Assembly (NCBI RefSeq): GCF_030412785.1
Contig: NZ_CP125296.1
Location: 868,001-932,000, forward strand
Length of the DNA: 64,000 nt
DNA from: Paraburkholderia sabiae
GTDB taxonomy: Bacteria; Pseudomonadota; Gammaproteobacteria; Burkholderiales; Burkholderiaceae
Direction of reading: 5' to 3'
Shown here piece after piece: positions 32,738 through 41,752 of this stretch; position 1 is the stretch's first letter, and each line of letters begins with the position of its first letter. Under the pieces are notes generated by a model. That model was not told the DNA's origin and did no database searches. It saw only the letters and a list, made by a program, of their open reading frames with translations. The position numbers and the translations under genes were made by a program.

Positions 32738-33813
32738 CCCTTGATCGCTCCCGAGCGCGGCACGATTTCAGGCTTCGTGCTCTTGCCTTCGTAGCGTGTC
32801 GACGTGTTCAGATAAGGATCGACCGAACCCTTCGTCACGAACTTCAGGCCGGTGTTCACGTTGGCCGGCCCGACGAGACCGCCCGACGCAAGATACACGA
32901 ACGCCTGCACCACGGTATAGAAACCTTGCACGTAAGGCTGCTGATCGATCGTGAAGTCGAGAAAACCGTCGTGGATCAACTGGACCGTGCGCGGCAGCAG
33001 ATCGAAGCCGCCGCCATGCACGCCTTTCGACGGCAGGTTGTTTTCCTTCATCACCTCGGCGACGCCTTGCGTGCTGCCTGCATCGACGGCAAACATGCCT
33101 TTTAGATCCTGGTGACCGAGATAGAACGACTTGATCTTCGACAGCTCTTCGTTGACCGTCGCGCCCGTCGCGATGGTCTGCACGTCGATCTTCTTGCCCG
33201 ACTTCTTGATCGCGGCCGTGGCGCCGTCGAGGCGCGGCTGGATGTTGAGCTGACCCGGCGTCGCGATGAACAGGCCGACCGTGCCGCTGTCGATCAGGCT
33301 CGCGATGCGTTCGCCCATCTGATAGCCGGACAGATACAGATCCTGGCCGATGTAGCTCAGCCGCGGATTCGTCGAACCCTGCGGCGCGTCGGCGTTGTAA
33401 GCGAACACGGGAATCCCGGCGTCGAGCGCGGCCTGGATCGGTTTGTCGAACGCTTTCGGATCGACGATCGGCACGGCGATCGCGTCGGCTTTCCCGGCGA
33501 TCGCGGCGTTGACGGCGTTGACCATCTCGGCGATATCGGCGTTGGCCGAACCCGACCACTGATAGTCCATGCCGAGCAGGGCCGTGGCGTCCTGGATGCC
33601 GTATTGCGTCGGAACAAAAAACGGATTCGTCGTCACGTGATTGACGAAGACGATTTTCCAGCGCTTGTGCGCGGGAAACGGACCGCCTTCGGCTGCCATT
33701 GCCGGGGTGACCACGCCACCCAGCAGCGCCATCGCCGCGCTCAGGGCGGCGCCTTGCAGCATGCCGCGACGCATACTTTGAACTTCGCCTTTCGATTCTT
33801 GCTCACTGGCCAT
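32734..33813 (-). CDS. Periplasmic sugar-binding protein (CUT2 family)
   Basis: 359 residues of the periplasmic binding protein-1 type (RbsB/FrcB). The N-terminal signal contains a twin-arginine (S-M-R-R-G-M-L-Q) before a hydrophobic run ending A-M-A, so Tat export is possible. Core: N-H-V-T-T-N-P-F-F, A-D-A-I-A-V-P-I-V-D-P, V-F-A-Y-N-A-D-A-P. ATG 33813 has GGAGG five bases upstream. Ligand probably a monosaccharide or related polyol. No catabolic gene adjoins it. Confidence 0.92.
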   Translation of the reverse strand: MASEQESKGEVQSMRRGMLQGAALSAAMALLGGVVTPAMAAEGGPFPAHKRWKIVFVNHVTTNPFFVPTQYGIQDATALLGMDYQWSGSANADIAEMVNAVNAAIAGKADAIAVPIVDPKAFDKPIQAALDAGIPVFAYNADAPQGSTNPRLSYIGQDLYLSGYQMGERIASLIDSGTVGLFIATPGQLNIQPRLDGATAAIKKSGKKIDVQTIATGATVNEELSKIKSFYLGHQDLKGMFAVDAGSTQGVAEVMKENNLPSKGVHGGGFDLLPRTVQLIHDGFLDFTIDQQPYVQGFYTVVQAFVYLASGGLVGPANVNTGLKFVTKGSVDPYLNTSTRYEGKSTKPEIVPRSGAIKG

Positions 33814-33989
33814 GTCATCCTCCGGACTTCGAGTTATCAAATGACTAGCTGCGCATGACGACGCGGTGCGAGAAAGCATCAATACCGGGCAAATTCATCG
33901 TACACAATTCCATGCGCACGCTCCTCACCGCCCCGCAGAAAATGCTATATCACGCCCTTCGCGTGAATAATCAACGTATACCCTAGAAG

Positions 33990-34000
33990 TAGTCAGACTA
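33990..34000. promoter_or_regulatory. TNGTNNNACNA palindrome, GntR/FadR-type site
   Basis: TAGTC-A-GACTA, a perfect 11-bp palindrome that matches the TNGTNNNACNA form bound by FadR-subfamily GntR regulators (recalled consensus). It lies 176 bp upstream of the sugar-binding protein start. No gntR gene is seen in the window, so the regulator would be encoded elsewhere. Confidence 0.4.
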
Positions 34001-34112
34001 TTAGTGCGTGGCGATACCGCCGGTTGATTGACCTTTCAGCCTCGAGATTTCCGGTGGTTGAATCGGAGGATGACGGTTAGGGATCCGATGCGACGCCCGC
34101 CGCGCGACTAGT

Positions 34113-34197
34113 GGTTTTCCCCTCCTATGCGAGCGCCGCATACGGGCATGCACACCCGGCATCATCGTCTTTTTCTTCGTGCCTACCATCCGTTCTG
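34113..34197 (+). promoter_or_regulatory. Conserved promoter block, copy A (asparaginase)
   Basis: Aligns without gaps to 36503-36587 (63 of 85 identical by hand count). Key elements: GGTTTTCC, the inverted repeat TATGCG-N5-CGCATA (34126-34142), GCATGC (34146-34151), CCGGCAT (34156-34162), CGTCTTTTT and TACCATCCGTTCTG at the right end. The inverted repeats suit a LysR protein, and one is encoded between the two copies. TACCAT may act as the -10 box. Confidence 0.75.
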
Positions 34198-34294
34198 GCG
34201 CGTGTGGCGGCCGTGATCCACCGTATCGAACGCGCACACGCCAATCAGATTCGCCCCTGCGTCCACACGATTCTTTACCGGTGCACATGCCATC

Positions 34295-35422
34295 ATGAAT
34301 ACCATGCCACGACTCGTCACATCGTCCTGCCTCACCGTCAGTGCTTTACTGATCGCCGCATGTATCGCGCTTCCCCTTTGTTCGACGGCGGCCCAGGCTG
34401 CCGACACGGCGACAACTTCGAACAGTCGACAGAGCCTTCCCCGTGTAATCGTCCTCGCAACGGGCGGAACGATATCGGGAACCGCGGACGCCCGGTCTGC
34501 GATCGGCTACAACTCGGGCGAACGGACCGGGAAGCAGTTGATCAAGGACGTCCCGGACATCGGGAAATTCGCGACGATCAGCGCGGAACAGATTTCGAAT
34601 GTCGGCTCGCAAGACATGAGCGACGGCATCTGGTTCCAGCTGGCGAAGCGTATCGATGAGATCTTCGCCAGGGGCGAGGCAGAGGGTGTCGTGATCACCC
34701 ACGGTACCGATACGATGGAGGAGACGGCCTTCTTCCTGAAAAACGTATTGCACTCCCGTCAGCCAGTGGTCCTGGTCGGATCGATGCGGCCGGGCGGGGT
34801 GGTCGGTGCCGATGGCCCGAACAATCTTCTGGAGGCGGTGGAGGTTGCTGCCAGCCCGCAATCGAAAGGACGTGGAGTCATGGTCGTCATGAACGACACG
34901 ATTCATGACCCACGCTGGATCACGAAGACGAATACGACTTCGGTTCAGACTTTCATGTCCCCGAACGCCGGTCCGATCGGTTACGTGGACCCGGCATCCG
35001 TCCGCTACGTCGCGCCTGCCACGGAAGCTCGCCCGTCAGGCTTCACGCTGCCTGCAGCCGGCCAGTTGCCTCGCGTGGACATCGTCTATGCGCACAGCAA
35101 TATGGATGCATCGCAGATCGATCATGCCGTCGCTGACAACGCGAAAGGCATCATCGTTGCCGGTGTCGGCGATGGCGACGTCTCCAAGGCTGCATTGTCT
35201 GCGATGGAGCGTGCGGCAAAGATGGGAATCGTCGTGGTTCGCGCTTCCCGCGTTGGGACAGGATTCGTGAACCGGAACGTCGAGATCGACGATGACAAGA
35301 GCGGCTTCGTTGCATCGCTCGATCTCAATCCGCAGAAGGCCCGCCTGTTGACGCAATTGCTGATCGCAAACGGTGTCACCACGCCTGCGAAAGTGCAGGA
35401 TGCGTTTTCGACTACGTATTGA
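34295..35422 (+). CDS. ansB: Exported type II L-asparaginase (asparaginase/glutaminase)
   Basis: Hydrolyses L-asparagine (often glutamine too) to aspartate and ammonia in the periplasm. 375 residues with an N-terminal signal peptide (about 1-36, hydrophobic C-L-T-V-S-A-L-L-I-A-A-C, ending A-Q-A-A), then the two catalytic-threonine signatures: A-T-G-G-T-I-S-G near 55 and T-H-G-T-D-T-M-E-E-T near 135, plus the S-M-R-P-G segment. Length normal for the periplasmic class. ATG 34295 or 34304. First gene of the Asn/Asp island; aspartate released outside can be taken up by the symporter downstream. Confidence 0.93.
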   Translation: MNTMPRLVTSSCLTVSALLIAACIALPLCSTAAQAADTATTSNSRQSLPRVIVLATGGTISGTADARSAIGYNSGERTGKQLIKDVPDIGKFATISAEQISNVGSQDMSDGIWFQLAKRIDEIFARGEAEGVVITHGTDTMEETAFFLKNVLHSRQPVVLVGSMRPGGVVGADGPNNLLEAVEVAASPQSKGRGVMVVMNDTIHDPRWITKTNTTSVQTFMSPNAGPIGYVDPASVRYVAPATEARPSGFTLPAAGQLPRVDIVYAHSNMDASQIDHAVADNAKGIIVAGVGDGDVSKAALSAMERAAKMGIVVVRASRVGTGFVNRNVEIDDDKSGFVASLDLNPQKARLLTQLLIANGVTTPAKVQDAFSTTY

Positions 35423-35445
35423 TTTCAGGTGTGCCGTGCTATCCG

Positions 35446-35469
35446 AACCGCGTCCCTTGGGACGCGGTT
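35446..35469 (+). terminator. Hairpin terminator after asparaginase
   Basis: AACCGCGTCCC / GGGACGCGGTT, an 11-bp perfect stem (central pairs probably open as loop), 24 bp after the asparaginase stop, followed by a short T-rich GCTTTCGTTT. Confidence 0.75.
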
Positions 35470-35587
35470 GCTTTCGTTTACGGCGTAAGCACGGCCTGGG
35501 CAGCGCATGACGGCGGGCGGGCGCGGTTAGAATGCTGGCGTCGCCGCCGGGCGCGACGTTCGTTCCACACAAGGCTAGCCGCGCGTC

Positions 35588-36502
35588 ATGGAAATCAAGT
35601 GGATTGAGGACTTCGTTGCCCTCGCTCAATACAAAAGCTTCTCTCGCGCAGCGGAATTCCGGAATGTGACCCAATCGGGATTCAGCAGGCGCATCCAGTC
35701 GTTGGAGCAATGGGTCGGCGCCGAACTGATCGACCGCAGCAGTTTTCCGCCCGTGTTGACGCCGGCGGGTCAACTGTTCAGAGAGGTGGCTGACGACGTC
35801 CTGAACAAGCTCTACGACACGCGCGCGATCATCCGTACCGAGCAACGGATCGCCGGCAAGAGTCTGCAGATTGCGGCCGGACATACCATCGCGCTCAATT
35901 TCCTGCCCGCATGGCTAAAAGCCCTTGCCACGCACTTCGGCGAAGTCCGCGCGCGGGTTGTGCCGACCAACGTACATGACTCGATCCTGATGCTCGTGAA
36001 CGGCAATTGCGAGTTGATGTTTGCGTACCACCATCCCGAGCTTCCCCTGCATCTCGACCCCGTGAAGTATGAGCACGTCACGGTAGGCATCGACACGCTC
36101 ATGCCGGCGAGCAGGCCGAATCAACGCTCCGCGCCGATGTATCGTCTGCCCGGAACAGCGAAACAGCCGCTATTGCATATCTCTTACACGGAGACGAGCT
36201 ACTTCGGACGGTGTCTTTCGCTTCTGCTGGGTCGAGCTTCGAGTACACCCGCATTGAGCCTTCACTACGAATCGGACATGGCAGAAGTCCTCAAGAAGCT
36301 GGTGATGGAAGGTGAGGGAATCGCCTGGCTTCCGAGGAGCGCAATCGCAGCGGAACTCGATAGCGGAGAACTCGTTCCCGCCGGACCGTCCATGTGGAAT
36401 CTCGAGATAGAGTTGCGTGTCTATCGCGACGCATCCAATCGCAATGAGTTTCTCGACTCGCTGTGGCAGCACCTTCGAGCGGTTTCTCCCGTTGCCGGCT
36501 AG
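35588..36502 (+). CDS. LysR-family regulator of the Asn/Asp island
   Basis: 304 residues, ATG 35588. HTH: S-F-S-R-A-A-E-F-R-N-V-T-Q-S-G-F-S-R-R-I-Q-S-L-E-Q-W-V-G; effector domain from about 90. The E-F-R-N-V-T-Q-S-x-F-S-R-R start is like the HypT/YjiE-related branch. It sits exactly between the two copies of the conserved promoter block, and its stop codon abuts copy B, so it is the natural candidate to control both the asparaginase and the symporter-racemase-aspartase genes. Confidence 0.9.
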   Translation: MEIKWIEDFVALAQYKSFSRAAEFRNVTQSGFSRRIQSLEQWVGAELIDRSSFPPVLTPAGQLFREVADDVLNKLYDTRAIIRTEQRIAGKSLQIAAGHTIALNFLPAWLKALATHFGEVRARVVPTNVHDSILMLVNGNCELMFAYHHPELPLHLDPVKYEHVTVGIDTLMPASRPNQRSAPMYRLPGTAKQPLLHISYTETSYFGRCLSLLLGRASSTPALSLHYESDMAEVLKKLVMEGEGIAWLPRSAIAAELDSGELVPAGPSMWNLEIELRVYRDASNRNEFLDSLWQHLRAVSPVAG

Positions 36503-36587
36503 GGTTTTCCCGGCTTATGCGAAAACAGCATGGCCGCATGCAGCACCGGCATTCACGTCTTTTTGATCATCTCTACCATCCGTTCTG
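36503..36587 (+). promoter_or_regulatory. Conserved promoter block, copy B (symporter operon)
   Basis: Begins at the base after the LysR stop codon and matches copy A position by position (offset 2390). TATGCG-N5-AGCAT (36516-36531), GCATGC (36536-36541), CCGGCAT (36546-36552) and TACCATCCGTTCTG are all kept. It ends 96 bp before the symporter start. Confidence 0.75.
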
Positions 36588-36683
36588 ACTCTGGCGCGAC
36601 GTGTGACGGGCGCCGTGCGGAACCTCTTCCCGCGCATGACGATCGCGCCGCGACCGGCATGCGTCACTCAAGGACGGATGGAA

Positions 36684-37964
36684 ATGAAAAATCGCCTCAC
36701 TCTGAATATCGCGGCCGGGATGGTGCTCGGCGTGATCGCGGGCTATGTGTGTCACACGAGCCTGTCCGACCCTGCAACCGTGAAGGCCGTGGCCGGGTAC
36801 TTCTCTATCGTCACGGACATCTTCCTGCGGCTCATCAAGATGATCATCGCGCCGCTGGTCTTTGCGACGCTCGTGTCCGGGCTTGCGGGCATGGACAGCG
36901 GCCAGGATGTCGGGCGGATCGGTCTGCGCTCGGTTGGCTGGTTCGTCTGCGCGTCGCTGCTGTCGCTGAGTCTCGGCCTCGTTCTCGCGAATCTTCTGCA
37001 GCCGGGCGCAGGATTGCATCTGGTCGAGAGTGCGGCAGAGGTCAACACGGGGTTGAACACATCGGCGTTGAACGTCAAGGATGTCATTACCCACGCGTTT
37101 CCGACCAGCTTGCTGGACGCAATGGCACGCAACGACATCCTCCAGATTCTCGTTTTCTCAGTGTTCCTCGGGCTTGCACTCAGTGCACTGAAGCGTGACG
37201 AGCGCGTGAAGATCGTCGTGCACGCGATCGACGGAATGGTGCCCGTCATGCTGCGTCTGACGAACTATGTGATGCGTGCCGCACCGCTGGGTGTGTTCGG
37301 TGCGATCGCATCGGCTGTCACGTTGCGCGGCGTGGACGTGCTATACACGTACGGCAAACTGATTGGCTCGTTCTATCTGGGGTTGGCGCTTCTGTGGACG
37401 ATTCTCATCGCGATCGGCTATGTGTTCCTCGGACGTCGCGTCGGAACGTTGCTCAAGGCCGTGCGTGAACCCGCGATGATTGCGTTTTCCACTGCGAGCA
37501 GCGAAGCAGCCTATCCGCGGCTTACTGAACAACTGGAGCGGTTCGGCGTGGACAAGAAGGTGGTCGGCTTCACGCTGCCGCTGGGCTACGCGTTCAATCT
37601 CGACGGTTCGATGATGTATCAGGCGTTCGCGGCGATCTTCATTGCGCAGGCTTTCGGTGTCGACATGCCCGTCTCGCAGCAGATCTTCATGCTGCTGGTG
37701 TTGATGCTGAGCAGCAAGGGCATGGCCAGCGTGCCGCGCGGCTCGGTCGTCGTGGTTGCGGCAGTGGCGCCGATGTTCCACCTGCCGGCTGCCGGCGTGG
37801 CGATGGTGCTGGCAATCGATCAGATCCTGGACATGGGACGGACCATGACCAATGTCATCGGCAACAGCGTCGCGACGGCGGTCATTGCGAAATGGGAGGG
37901 CGCGCGCCAGCCGCAATCCGACGATGCACCTTTGTTCGACCAGGCGGAGGTCGGAGCAAAATGA
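36684..37964 (+). CDS. Dicarboxylate/amino-acid:cation symporter (DAACS family)
   Basis: Secondary importer of C4-dicarboxylates or aspartate/glutamate (DctA/GltP type), 426 residues with about eight membrane helices plus re-entrant loops. Motifs: L-I-K-M-I-I-A-P-L-V-F, F-S-T-A-S-S-E-A-A-Y-P (serine-rich tip of HP1), D-G-S-M-M-Y-Q-A in TM7, and D-x-x-x-D-M-G-R-T-M-T-N-V near the end. ATG 36684 has AAGGA nine bases upstream; 36678 is an alternative. The R-T-M-T-N-V end and the neighbours favour aspartate or fumarate. Overlaps the racemase start by ATGA. Confidence 0.92.
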   Translation: MKNRLTLNIAAGMVLGVIAGYVCHTSLSDPATVKAVAGYFSIVTDIFLRLIKMIIAPLVFATLVSGLAGMDSGQDVGRIGLRSVGWFVCASLLSLSLGLVLANLLQPGAGLHLVESAAEVNTGLNTSALNVKDVITHAFPTSLLDAMARNDILQILVFSVFLGLALSALKRDERVKIVVHAIDGMVPVMLRLTNYVMRAAPLGVFGAIASAVTLRGVDVLYTYGKLIGSFYLGLALLWTILIAIGYVFLGRRVGTLLKAVREPAMIAFSTASSEAAYPRLTEQLERFGVDKKVVGFTLPLGYAFNLDGSMMYQAFAAIFIAQAFGVDMPVSQQIFMLLVLMLSSKGMASVPRGSVVVVAAVAPMFHLPAAGVAMVLAIDQILDMGRTMTNVIGNSVATAVIAKWEGARQPQSDDAPLFDQAEVGAK

Positions 37965-39460
37965 CGCCGGTGATCAACGAACACAGGCGCAAGTACGGGA
38001 TCGTGGGCGGCCTCGGACCGTTGGCAAGCGCAGATGTGTTCTTCAAGCTCGTGAAGGCGTTGCCGCCGTCGACGGATTCGGAACACGCCGATCTGATTTT
38101 CCAGCAGCATCCGTTTCGCAGCGGCGGATCGGGTAGTGCGGCAACGACGGAACGCAAGCTGTATATCTTCGAGATGATTCGCGACTTCGAGAAGCAGGGC
38201 GTGACGACGGTCGTGCTTCCGTGTTTCCTCAGTCATACGTTCATCGACGAACTGAAGACGAACACGAGTCTGCAGATCGTGGATATGGTCGATGCCGTGC
38301 GGCAGCACATTCGCAAACGCATGCACGGTGCGAGACGGATCGGAATCCTTGCGTCCGACTTCACGCGAGAGAAGCGGCTGTTCGAGCGTTATTTCGAGTC
38401 GCCCGAGTTCGAGGTCGTGTATCCGCGTCTGCACGATGGCGTCGATCTGGTGACGGAAGCGGTGTACGGGCAGGAGGGTATCAAGCGCGGCAATCTGCGC
38501 GGCCGTCCCGTCGAATTGCTGCACAGGGCGTGTGCCGATCTGATCGAACAGGGCGTCGATGTCATCGTGCCCGGCATGACGGAAATCGCACTCGTCGCGG
38601 ACGAAATTCGCGTGTTGAGTGTGCCGCTGGTCGATTCCAACCTGGTCTACGCACAACAGGTCGTGTCCGGCCAGTATGACTCGCCTTCGAGCGTCTTCAA
38701 GGTAGGGGTCGTGGGCGGCGTGGGTCCGGCCGCGACCATCGACTTTCTCGACAAGGTCGTGCGCAATACACCCGCAAAACGCGACCAGGATCACATCAGG
38801 CTGATCGTCGAACAGAATCCGCAGATTCCAGATCGCACCGAAAATCTGATCGGCGACGGGGCGGATCCCACCGTCTCGCTGTATGCGACGTGCAAGCGGC
38901 TGGAAGAGGGCGACGCCGACATCATCGCGATACCCTGCAATACCGCGCATGCGTTCGTCGAAAGGATTCAGCCGTATCTCGGCATACCCATCGTCAACAT
39001 GCTGACGGAGACCGTGCGCTACGTGCGCGAGTCCTGGCCGGATCATCGCGACATTGGCGTGCTCGCGACATCGGGAACGATTGCGAGCGGCGTATATGAA
39101 AAAGCGCTCGAATCACAGGGTCTTCGTCAGATTGCGCCCAACGCGATGCTACAGGGACGCGTGATGGAAGCGATCTACGGCAAGCGCGGCGTAAAAGCGG
39201 GATTCACCACGGGAAGATGTCAGGAAGATATCGCCGATGCAGTCGAAGGACTGGTCGCCCAAGGCGTGGAAATCATCATTCTTGGCTGCACCGAACTGCC
39301 GCTTCTTCTTCCGCTCGCCGAATACATCGGCAGGAGCGGCACGCATGCAAGACTCGTCGATCCGACCGACGTGCTTGCCCGGCGATGTATCGCCTATGCG
39401 ACTACAGCAAGCGAAACCGCGCGCGCCGCCACCACGCCGCTCCCGATCCTGCAGACCTGA
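37961..39460 (+). CDS. Double-domain aspartate/glutamate racemase-family protein
   Basis: 499 residues, twice the usual family size, made of two tandem Asp/Glu racemase modules (about 10-235 and 245-485), each beginning with G-V/I-V-G-G-x-G-P. The C-terminal module has both catalytic cysteines (Cys326 in I-P-C-N-T-A-H and Cys443 in L-G-C-T-E-L-P). The N-terminal module keeps the first (Cys88 in L-P-C-F-L-S-H) but has Met206 where the second should be (P-G-M-T-E-I). So one module should be a normal two-base racemase and the other changed. Coupled to the symporter (ATGA overlap) and followed by aspartase, suggesting interconversion of D- and L-aspartate so that both feed aspartase. Confidence 0.88.
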   Translation: MTPVINEHRRKYGIVGGLGPLASADVFFKLVKALPPSTDSEHADLIFQQHPFRSGGSGSAATTERKLYIFEMIRDFEKQGVTTVVLPCFLSHTFIDELKTNTSLQIVDMVDAVRQHIRKRMHGARRIGILASDFTREKRLFERYFESPEFEVVYPRLHDGVDLVTEAVYGQEGIKRGNLRGRPVELLHRACADLIEQGVDVIVPGMTEIALVADEIRVLSVPLVDSNLVYAQQVVSGQYDSPSSVFKVGVVGGVGPAATIDFLDKVVRNTPAKRDQDHIRLIVEQNPQIPDRTENLIGDGADPTVSLYATCKRLEEGDADIIAIPCNTAHAFVERIQPYLGIPIVNMLTETVRYVRESWPDHRDIGVLATSGTIASGVYEKALESQGLRQIAPNAMLQGRVMEAIYGKRGVKAGFTTGRCQEDIADAVEGLVAQGVEIIILGCTELPLLLPLAEYIGRSGTHARLVDPTDVLARRCIAYATTASETARAATTPLPILQT

Positions 39461-39532
39461 CGATTCCTCCGCCGTTGCTTCCGCGACGGCGGCGTCATCC
39501 GCGTATTCCCACATATCCGAATGGAGCCGTAC

Positions 39533-40981
39533 ATGTTCAATACCACCGAGCGCACCGAGCGTATCGAGCACGACCTTCTTGGCGATCTCGCCGTACCCGA
39601 TGCTGCCTACTACGGCGTCCACACGCTGCGTGCACTCGCCAACTTTCCTATCACAGGGATTCCAATCTCGACGTATCCGAACCTCGTCAACGCGTTGGCG
39701 AGCGTGAAAGAAGCCGCAGCGATGGCGAACCATGACCTCGGTTTGCTTGCCGGGCACAAGATGAACGCGATCGTCCACGCATGTCGTGAGATTCGCGCCG
39801 GTGTCGCGCATGACCAGTTTGTGGTGGATGTCATTCAGGGCGGCGCGGGTACTTCGACCAACATGAACGCAAATGAAGTGATCGCGAATCTGGCGCTGGA
39901 ACATCTTGGTCACCGGCGCGGCGACTACTCGATGTTGCATCCCAACGAGGACGTCAATCTCGGTCAAAGCACGAATGATGTGTATCCGACTGCCCTGAAG
40001 ATCGCGACCTACATGGGGATCGTTCAGCTGGTGCACGCGATGGGCGTATTGCGTCACGCGTTCGAGCGCAAGGCGGAAGAATTCCGCGACGACCTCAAAA
40101 TGGGGCGCACGCAGCTGCAGGATGCCGTTCCCATGACACTCGGGCAGGAGTTCAGCACGTTCGCTGTCATGCTGGGAGAAGACGAAGAGCGGCTCCTGGA
40201 AGCATCGAAGCTGATCTGCGAGATCAACCTCGGCGCAACGGCCATTGGAACGGGCATCAACACGTCGCCGGACTATGCGCCCCTCGCGTGCCGGCACCTT
40301 GCCAGCATCACGGGCATACCCGTTACCACATCGCCCAATCTCGTCGAGGCGACCCAGGACGTCGGCTCATTCGTCCAGTTGTCGGGCGTGCTCAAGCGCG
40401 TCGCGATCAAACTCTCCAAAACGTGCAACGACCTTCGTCTTCTTTCGAGCGGTCCGCGAGCGGGTTTTGGCGAGATCAACCTTCCGCCTGTTCAGGCAGG
40501 TTCGAGCATCATGCCGGGCAAGGTTAATCCGGTCATCCCGGAAGTCGTCAACCAGATTGCATTCGAAGTCATCGGCAACGATGTCACGGTCAGCTTCGCG
40601 GCAGAAGCCGGTCAGTTGCAGCTGAATGCTTTCGAGCCGCTTATCGCGCACAGCATCTTCAAGAGCGTCGCCCATCTGCGGGCGGGATGCCTCACGCTTG
40701 CATCGAGATGTGTCGATGGCATTACTGCGAACCGCGATCGACTTCATTCGCTGGTTGAGAACTCGATCGGTATCGTGACTGCGCTCAACCCCTACATCGG
40801 CTATACCAACGCGACGCAGGTTGCGCAGCAAGCGTTGCTGTCGGGGAAGAGCGTTGCTGAGATCGTCATCGAAACGGGCCTGCTCAGCCGGGCGCAACTC
40901 GATGAGATCCTTCAACCCGCGATGCTGACCGAGCCGAGAAGGGCACTCGCCTTCGACAGTGGCGCGCTGGAGCAGGGTTGA
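39533..40981 (+). CDS. aspA: Aspartate ammonia-lyase
   Basis: Deaminates L-aspartate to fumarate and ammonium. 482 residues, normal for aspartase. Fumarase/aspartase superfamily signature G-S-S-I-M-P-G-K-V-N at about 325, G-G-A-G-T-S-T-N-M-N-A-N-E at about 100, and N-D-V-Y-P-T-A-L near 145. ATG 39533 has GGAG six bases upstream; ATG 39521 is less well placed. Last gene of the symporter-racemase-aspartase unit, delivering carbon to the TCA cycle. Confidence 0.94.
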   Translation: MFNTTERTERIEHDLLGDLAVPDAAYYGVHTLRALANFPITGIPISTYPNLVNALASVKEAAAMANHDLGLLAGHKMNAIVHACREIRAGVAHDQFVVDVIQGGAGTSTNMNANEVIANLALEHLGHRRGDYSMLHPNEDVNLGQSTNDVYPTALKIATYMGIVQLVHAMGVLRHAFERKAEEFRDDLKMGRTQLQDAVPMTLGQEFSTFAVMLGEDEERLLEASKLICEINLGATAIGTGINTSPDYAPLACRHLASITGIPVTTSPNLVEATQDVGSFVQLSGVLKRVAIKLSKTCNDLRLLSSGPRAGFGEINLPPVQAGSSIMPGKVNPVIPEVVNQIAFEVIGNDVTVSFAAEAGQLQLNAFEPLIAHSIFKSVAHLRAGCLTLASRCVDGITANRDRLHSLVENSIGIVTALNPYIGYTNATQVAQQALLSGKSVAEIVIETGLLSRAQLDEILQPAMLTEPRRALAFDSGALEQG

Positions 40982-40990
40982 TAGACGGCT

Positions 40991-41752
40991 TCACGTACGC
41001 ATGGACGGCTGCGACAACGCCTTCGCCGAGGCAATCAGATCGTCGAGCATCGCGGCGCGCTTGGCGGGATCGGTGTCGCGCCCCGTCATGAAGCACAGCG
41101 CCGCGATGGGCAGGCCGGTCCGATCGCGCACGGGCGCGGCCATGCAGAGCCGGAAGGACATCGAAAGACCCTCCGTGCAGCAATAGCCTCGCGCTGCCGC
41201 GTCGCGAACGTCCTGCATGAAGGCGTCGAATCCGATGCGGCGACCGTCGTCCAGAACGTAGTCTTCGTCGGGAATCAGCGCGTGGACGTCATCGTCGGTC
41301 AGATGTCCGAGCAGCAGGCGGCCCGTCGCTGTCCACGGAATCGGCACCCTCACGCCGATATCGGAGGTGATGTTGAACGGGCGCGCGCTGTTCTCCGACA
41401 GCACCACCGTGTACTTGTTGCCTTCGAGCATGCACAGCTGCGTGGTCTCGTCGTACTTGCGCACGAGACCGAGTATGGTCTGATGCGCGCGGCTGATGAG
41501 ATCGTTGTGCATCGCGTAATCGGCGCCGTAGTAGTGCATCTCGCGCCCGAAAAACACGCTGCCGTCGGCGGCCGTTTCGAGCCAGCCCGCCTCCGTGAGT
41601 ATCGTGACCAGCTCATAGACGCTCGAACGCGGTGCACGCGTCGCCTCGATCAGCTCGCGCATCGTCAGCGGACGCCGCGCAACATGCAGTTCTTTGAAAA
41701 TGCCGATCACGCGGTCCACGCCCCGGGCCCGTGACGATTCTGGTGCAGACAT
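40991..41752 (-). CDS. IclR-family transcriptional regulator
   Basis: 253 residues: HTH about 10-70 (L-T-M-R-E-L-I-E-A-T-R-A-P-R-S-S-V-Y-E-L-V) and IclR effector domain about 80-245 (T-A-T-G-R-L-L-L, R-G-Y-C-C-T-E-G). It follows the ABC transporter genes on the same strand by 88 bp and is convergent with aspA. Likely regulator of that transporter. An unusual U-free leader (41784-41824) lies upstream. Confidence 0.9.
   Translation of the reverse strand: MSAPESSRARGVDRVIGIFKELHVARRPLTMRELIEATRAPRSSVYELVTILTEAGWLETAADGSVFFGREMHYYGADYAMHNDLISRAHQTILGLVRKYDETTQLCMLEGNKYTVVLSENSARPFNITSDIGVRVPIPWTATGRLLLGHLTDDDVHALIPDEDYVLDDGRRIGFDAFMQDVRDAAARGYCCTEGLSMSFRLCMAAPVRDRTGLPIAALCFMTGRDTDPAKRAAMLDDLIASAKALSQPSMRT

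Follow-up and report, generated by a model that had tools for sequence, protein, structure and literature searches.

A conserved pair of predicted LysR-type operator-promoters beside aspartate and asparagine genes in Paraburkholderia sabiae

Promoters with two sites for one LysR regulator are well known, BenM and CatM being examples, and in LysR activators the recognition and activation sites usually lie at -63 and -42. The regulator gene is commonly, not obligatorily, divergent from its target in this family. DarR of Vibrio fischeri, reportedly a D-aspartate-responsive regulator, is said to be linked to a racemase gene, racD, and Acinetobacter has AalR, a LysR regulator for aspartate use that did not come up in the literature searched here. 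One study describes LysR tetramers that use paired recognition and activation sites (PMC11739112). The hypochlorite-responsive LysR regulator HypT is described in another as activated by methionine oxidation (PMC3792123). This article concerns a 64,000-nucleotide stretch of Paraburkholderia sabiae DNA (NZ_CP125296.1, positions 868,001 to 932,000; hereafter “the window”), in which two copies of an 85-bp non-coding block, copy A and copy B, flank the gene of a LysR-type regulator. We consider it highly probable that the copies are two operator-promoters for the regulator encoded between them, and that this protein activates the catabolism of aspartate (perhaps D-aspartate) and asparagine.

The regulator (lysR, 35588..36502, + strand, 304 aa) is HypT-like and combines an N-terminal HTH_1 domain (Pfam PF00126, 61.9 bits, cut-off 26.6) with a C-terminal LysR_substrate domain (PF03466, 69.9 bits, cut-off 28). 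The best NCBIfam model for it is that of HypT (YjiE of E. coli and Salmonella), but its 147.8 bits stay below the curated cut-off of 301, and the genes beside HypT differ from those beside lysR here. Its best PDB matches are 7dwo/7dwn, which we take to be DarR, and 5ydw, presumably HypT (entered in the PDB as cell density-dependent motility repressor), which matches residues 2-299. If 7dwn/7dwo are indeed DarR, then that protein is its best solved match; a racemase-like gene accompanies the regulator in 90 of 91 loci, as racD is said to accompany DarR, whereas the predicted regulon of the window adds a symporter, an aspartase, and an asparaginase, and its racemase has two domains. A T-N11-A dyad and a weaker second dyad beside the predicted promoter, with what we infer to be the -63/-42 geometry, resemble the two-site LysR promoters; the arrangement differs from them in that the regulator gene is co-directional with its predicted targets and that two promoters share one layout. 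The mechanism proposed is of a known kind. In the literature searched, which included few subscription papers, we found no Burkholderiaceae LysR associated with aspartate racemase, aspartase, asparaginase, or D-aspartate, and no description of this regulator with an aspartate/asparagine regulon.

One block in two copies

Judged on their sequence, copies A and B are a real and strongly conserved pair of putative LysR-type operator-promoters. Copy A (34113..34197, + strand) would be the LysR-dependent promoter of the asparaginase gene ansB, and in relatives too the block stands upstream of ansB; copy B (36503..36587, + strand) would serve the symporter, racemase, and aspartase genes, and in relatives the block lies past lysR. 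An earlier sequence-only reading had counted 63 identities in 85 positions, ungapped and at a constant offset of 2390 bp. Our recount gives the same figure, and a binomial calculation on base composition returns P ~1e-19 for at least 63 of 85. The runner-up ungapped match to copy A inside the window reaches 42/85 on the + strand and 39/85 on the - strand. The likeness spans all 85 bp and takes in both GGTTTTCCC, ahead of the dyads, and CCGTTCTG, past the -10 element. The flanks proved dissimilar on realignment, as that reading had held, and it was also right that the lysR stop codon touches copy B, the TAG occupying 36500-36502 and the block beginning at 36503. In the whole 9.9 Mb genome, the core TATGC-N7-GCAT-N6-ATG-N8-GCAT occurs without mismatch exactly twice, in copies A and B.

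The motifs that had been listed for both copies are present at equal spacing, GCATGC and CCGGCAT being parts of a single element, the second of two LysR-type dyads. Each copy runs from a TATGCG-N5-CGCATA-like dyad (T-N11-A) through an ATGC-N7-GCAT dyad (block positions 36-50) and a T-run to a -10-like TANNAT, a layout that is, to judge from these motifs, that of a LysR-activated promoter. The first dyad of copy A, TATGCGAGCGCCGCATA (34126..34142, + strand), is a perfect TATGC-N7-GCATA and the predicted recognition site; the T-N11-A motif of LysR regulators, TGCG-N5-CGCA, sits inside TATGCG-N5-CGCATA and is full in this copy. The predicted activation site of copy A is the second dyad (34148..34162, + strand), followed by the -10-like TACCAT (34184..34189, + strand). 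Alignment with copy A places the first dyad of copy B, TATGCGAAAACAGCATG, at 36516..36532; alignment and conservation among relatives place its second, ATGCAGCACCGGCAT, at 36538..36552; and conservation marks the -10-like TACCAT at 36574..36579 (all + strand). The dyads are centered at block positions 22 and 43, 21 bp apart. Transcription is predicted to start near 34197 for copy A and 36587 for copy B, that is, near block position 85, which would put the dyads at -63 and -42; the second dyad adjoins the place expected for a -35 element, given that predicted start. No sigma-70 pair of the TTGACA/TATAAT type was found in 33850-41100 (shuffled sequences give a mean of 2.3), which fits an activator-dependent promoter.

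The block and its putative regulator across relatives

One search for relatives was capped at its 80 best matches out of 102, which gave 79 loci. Copy B was scored as present when at least 38 of the 63 shared positions were found within 250 bp past lysR. By this measure 97 of 108 sequences (107 loci and the window) have it directly behind lysR, or 86 of 97 without the 11 duplicate genomes, and these yield 85 distinct blocks. The 11 sequences below threshold comprise six chosen as distant LysR relatives (L062-L067), an Azoarcus locus (L146), and L123, L134, L136, and L137, the last three of which retain 18-19 of 20 pattern positions despite their score. In L134 and L136, which are related distant loci, the second dyad reads ATTC-N7-GAAT, with both arms altered and the symmetry intact. 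Copy A was met only where ansB or its deletion remnant precedes lysR.

Among the 85 distinct B blocks, TATGC (14-18), G26, A28, T29, AT (36-37), GCAT (47-50), and TA..AT (72-73, 76-77) are invariant, and C27 (84/85), G38 (82/85), and T61 (83/85) nearly so. The outer dyad TATGC/GCAT is thereby held with a single exception at one base, and its arms remain complementary at 15-29, 16-28, and 18-26 in all 85 blocks and at 17-27 in 84. The stretches between the dyads differ freely. Just 5' of the first dyad, GGTTTTCCC (34113-34121 and 36503-36511) recurs exactly in 29 of the 85 blocks, and GTTTACCC-type variants of it occur in several Caballeronia loci and in loci of the genus g334.

We then searched 144 congeneric genomes with TATGC-N7-GCAT-N6-ATG-N8-GCAT-N21-TANNAT, allowing at most one mismatch. 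The site was found in 60 of them and a reversed control pattern in none; the LysR, at E<=1e-100, was likewise found in 60. Both occur together in 59 genomes, the site alone in one (G030), the LysR alone in one (G169), and neither in 83 (Fisher p 2.5e-38, with no correction for kinship). It had been predicted that the block would precede ansB or symporter orthologues only where this LysR is present, and within the genus that is how it turned out, with two discordant genomes against 59 with both.

Of the 76 genus sites, 57 follow the lysR match at a distance of 15-47 bp; another 12, found 416-1599 bp upstream of that match, precede ansB or its leftover, and seven lie elsewhere. (Three of the 12, in G124, G161, and G177, were viewed through loci L069, L071, and L074, which have matching coordinates; the gene content behind the 57 was checked in fetched loci.) Two of the seven, in G119 and G154, stand before symporter-racemase genes, with lysR convergent in the former and interrupted by roughly 3 kb of inserted DNA in the latter. 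The five sites remote from lysR all precede aspartase or symporter-aspartase genes: aspA in G131, G170, and G042, symporter-aspA in G019, and symporter-aspA-ansB in G030. Beyond the family, 3 of 368 other genomes of the class have an exact core, and none has the control pattern.

Gene content was counted in 91 loci with a LysR of at least 60% identity and enough sequence; 12 loci taken as duplicates (L082 in error), L194 (because of its strand), loci with a LysR below 60%, and those with less than 6.5 kb past the lysR start were excluded. A symporter is present in 90, a racemase in 90, aspA in 45, ansB upstream in 12, and ansB downstream in 14; the partial genes of L045 and L071 are included among the 12, and L068 is not. 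The fixed core of the regulon is therefore the symporter and the racemase, that is, uptake and racemisation. To follow aspA outside the operon, we sampled 27 LysR-bearing genomes picked as probably lacking it there, and nine of these gave 10 aspA loci. The core is found at four: directly upstream of aspA in G131 and G170; before aspA in G109, at 16/16 positions and with the -10 apparently one base further on; and before the symporter-aspA pair of G019, whose aspA carries one internal stop. Both aspA and ansB are predicted to be optional members of the regulon, with a promoter copy of their own in several genomes when they stand outside the operon. In 25 genomes without the LysR at E<=1e-100, aspA was found in six; five of these show at most 13 of 20 pattern positions in the locus, and in the sixth, G030, a complete site precedes the symporter gene.

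We propose that a LysR tetramer would occupy the strong dyad TATGCG-N5-CGCATA at about -63 and the weaker ATGC-N7-GCAT at about -42, beside the -35 place and two helical turns away, and that inducer binding would then allow transcription from the -10-like TANNAT. Copy A would drive an asparaginase that is probably exported, and copy B the symporter, racemase, and aspartase; asparagine could thus be turned into aspartate, imported, converted to the L form, and split into fumarate and ammonia. Since symporter and racemase form the fixed core (90 of 91 loci each), the inducer is likely an aspartate, quite possibly the D form. Another acidic amino acid may serve instead, because the racemase passes the cut-off of the cysteate racemase CuyB and related regulators precede cuyA.

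If this is correct, a regulator of many Burkholderiaceae, for which we found no name, gains a candidate operator along with two promoters as its targets and a few possible inducers. The one regulon would come in three layouts, with asparaginase upstream under its own copy, asparaginase at the end of the operon, or aspartase elsewhere under its own copy, and these would offer a natural test of how moved genes keep their regulator. It would also bring a metabolic, rather than a stress, reading of the HypT-like subfamily within experimental reach.

Origin of the copies and competing accounts

It had been suggested that the likeness of the two copies means either functional constraint or a promoter duplication, and the data fit both, as an old copy now held by constraint. 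Copy A of the window shares 63/85 positions with its own copy B and 64/85 with the best B of another species; across 13 A blocks, scores range from 46 to 64 against the own B and from 52 to 65 against the best B of any species. The neighboring B thus matches A no better than the Bs of other species do, hence our view that the copy is old and now constrained; the likeness seen in the window is what would be expected of any pair of functional copies. (For this comparison, 21 loci, mostly duplicates, were left out, L186, L187, L194, L195, and L196 were restored, and L082, L109, L141, L188, and L189 remained out; its blocks were selected by means of a dyad-containing pattern and are not used as evidence for the dyads.) A LysR tree of 92 rows, built by a quick method, points the same way: the rows that have ansB upstream, whole or as a remnant, are gathered in one group of 16 (13 with, 3 without; support 81, unstarred), so that the copy again seems old. 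The tree implies four changes, most plausibly a single gain of the upstream ansB followed by three losses. It omits 27 loci (duplicates, loci whose LysR is distant or broken, and, by mistake, L082) as well as L194, whose lysR is on the other strand, and takes L068 as having ansB upstream on the strength of its remnant. GGTTTTCCC stands in register in copy A of the window and in all six nodosa-group A blocks examined, and is absent from copy A of G042 and G001; where it is shared, it favors descent from one promoter over convergence.

Deletion scars were seen at some of these loci. In Paraburkholderia sp. Tr-20389 (L068, 7786-8001) and in P. nodosa CNPSo 1341 (L045, 3067-3376; likewise L145), copy A directly precedes a 3' remnant of ansB and now leads towards lysR. 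A tandem duplication of a lysR-promoter unit was also considered and rejected: a lysR remnant was sought upstream of copy A in 10 loci, and the matches listed, in L068 and the window, are at chance level (best E 0.15).

Could copy A instead have been copied from B recently in this lineage, by duplication or gene conversion, and simply not yet have diverged? The likeness over the full 85 bp, with GGTTTTCCC and CCGTTCTG included, is what such an event would leave behind, but it would also make A nearest to its own B, and the comparison of the 13 A blocks shows otherwise; together with the single LysR group and the free divergence of the loops between the dyads, this makes a recent event without special constraint distinctly unlikely. 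That the block is a terminator or RNA element, a hairpin and T-run ending lysR, we regard as very improbable. Copy B does abut the lysR stop codon and does hold a dyad and a T-run; against this, no evident gene end precedes copy A on its strand, the sites before aspA in G131, G170, and G042 and the site in G119 do not follow lysR, Rfam gives no match up to E=1 in 33800-37000, and a conserved TANNAT and a 21-bp dyad spacing are not features of terminators. As for a repeat family or REP-like mobile element that flanks lysR by chance, two similar non-coding copies close together might bring it to mind, but with two exact cores in the genome, and genus sites confined to the vicinity of lysR or to aspA and symporter genes, we give it practically no weight.

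There is more to be said for another regulator reading the operator, either alone or alongside the LysR of the window, one candidate being a HypT-like paralogue (43% identical) near a glutamate dehydrogenase gene. A related dyad with the same spacing lies downstream of this paralogue in P. sabiae itself and in each of the relatives fetched (20 of 20), and both G030 and 12 of the 15 site-bearing genomes of g334 have sites without an ortholog of the window LysR. Relatives of the paralogue type (about 43%) nevertheless occur in genus genomes that lack the site, and the site tracks the window LysR in 59 of the 61 genomes that have either, so we hold this account to be unlikely.

We return, then, to copies A and B as operator-promoters of the LysR encoded between them, and it is important to set out what weighs against it. 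The lysR gene is co-directional with both predicted targets and not divergent from them. G030 has an intact site (L195, 7098) before symporter-aspA-ansB but lacks the LysR at E<=1e-100 and, at this locus, a racemase; G169 has the LysR (61%) and no site; and in Caballeronia megalochromosomata (L123), which has the LysR (75%), the block was not found in the available 210 bp, a real miss. Out-of-operon aspA genes of five genomes (75-76% identical) show weak matches of 14-15 of 20 positions, and that of G004 matches 12 of 20. The tie between block and LysR, strong in the genus, is looser in the wider family and not one-to-one: in 249 genomes, we find the site in 47 and the LysR in 39, with both in 33, the LysR only in 6, the site only in 14, and neither in 196. 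In the six with LysR only, the LysR is 54-60% identical. Fifteen genomes of g334 bear a site with one mismatch; 12 of these lack the LysR at the threshold and account for 12 of the 14 site-only genomes. In the three of the 15 that were inspected (L241, L242, and L243), the site precedes a symporter of 58-59% identity, with no such LysR in the stretch. Finally, in three Burkholderia genomes the site at the lysR operon is joined, some 4 kb away, by another perfect one that precedes a D-Ala-D-Ala carboxypeptidase (S11) gene; this does not fit a simple pathway, though the gene touches D-amino acids. Those extra sites are at L238 6452 (-), L239 4998 (+), and L240 4391 (+).

Other family genomes show further arrangements. 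Both G639 and G591, members of g334 in which the LysR is present, have the order lysR-symporter-racemase-aspA (the racemase match in G591 is weak, at 28%). In each, a 15/16 core lies between lysR and the symporter, and the opposite strand carries a 16/16 core upstream of lysR. The site precedes aspA without a LysR in G746 and symporter-aspA in G683, where neither LysR nor racemase lies within 13 kb, and a 16/16 core precedes racemase-lysR in G563.

Related regulators and genes at the locus

More speculatively, a HypT/DarR-like branch of LysR regulators may share one operator plan (TATGC-N7-GCAT, with ATG-N8-GCAT 21 bp on) and govern the use of acidic or D-amino acids, genes joining and leaving by means of the 85-bp cassette. 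We put this forward tentatively and rather doubt it. Were it true, the functions so governed would include those of glutamate dehydrogenase, aspartase/racemase, asparaginase, D-cysteate lyase, D-amino acid dehydrogenase, and perhaps wall-derived D-amino acids, and the basic job of HypT in E. coli would be the use of isoaspartyl dipeptides.

Several observations touch this subject. Behind the HypT-like paralogue of P. sabiae (43%; L065 3276-6949, C1) come a dyad of the same plan, the glutamate dehydrogenase gene, and that of a GltI-type binding protein; in the 20 fetched relatives, where the dyad alone was examined, it shows 14-16 of 16 positions. LysR relatives of 57-60% identity stand in front of cuyA (L250, L254) or, in L251, a gene for a D-amino acid dehydrogenase, and the intervening DNA holds partial dyads. 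The cuyA-adjacent regulators of G618 and G596 (LysR 59-60% identical) resemble that of the window in having partial dyads behind the LysR gene, with 13-15 of 16 core positions, and in standing beside an enzyme of an acidic D-amino acid, D-cysteate sulfo-lyase; they differ in pathway and in their weaker site. In E. coli MG1655, a perfect TATGC-N7-GCATA (L214 10796-10812) is found some 115 bp ahead of yjiH, within the row yjiH-yjiG-iadA-hypT. It is the only such dyad in the 16 kb round hypT; 4 of 200 shuffles contain one. It was seen post hoc and is a lead only.

Within the window, ansB (34295..35422, + strand) encodes a type II asparaginase of 375 aa (NCBIfam TIGR00520, 376 bits, cut-off 314; Pfam PF00710 and PF17763) with an N-terminus that by eye resembles a signal peptide. 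Between ansB and lysR lies a terminator-like hairpin (35446..35469, + strand), with a 10-pair stem followed by GCTTTCGTTT; hairpins of this kind are at least as frequent when the scan is run on shuffled sequence. Downstream of copy B is a sodium:dicarboxylate symporter gene of the DctA/GltP family (36684..37964, + strand, with an alternative longer reading from 36603; Pfam SDF PF00375, 370 bits). The idea that transporters are swapped behind copy B was rejected as an artefact, as a frame-checked search shows a conserved symporter there, mostly 73-96% identical among relatives.

Next comes a two-domain racemase of the Asp/Glu type (37961..39460, + strand, 499 aa; Pfam PF01177 in two stretches), which scores above the NCBIfam cut-offs of both asp_race and CuyB. 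Its C half matches the aspartate racemase 1jfl in the PDB and retains both PCNTAH and GCTEL, motifs of a type that we take to be the catalytic cysteine motifs. In the N half, PGLTE or PGMTE replaces the second cysteine motif in 90 of 103 orthologous stretches (duplicates included, the remaining 13 being indeterminate); these loci too were picked with a dyad-containing pattern and are not evidence for the dyads. The enzyme would be a fusion with a seemingly degenerate copy. The row ends with aspA (39521..40981, + strand), an aspartate ammonia-lyase gene whose product scores 689 bits with TIGR00839 (cut-off 681).

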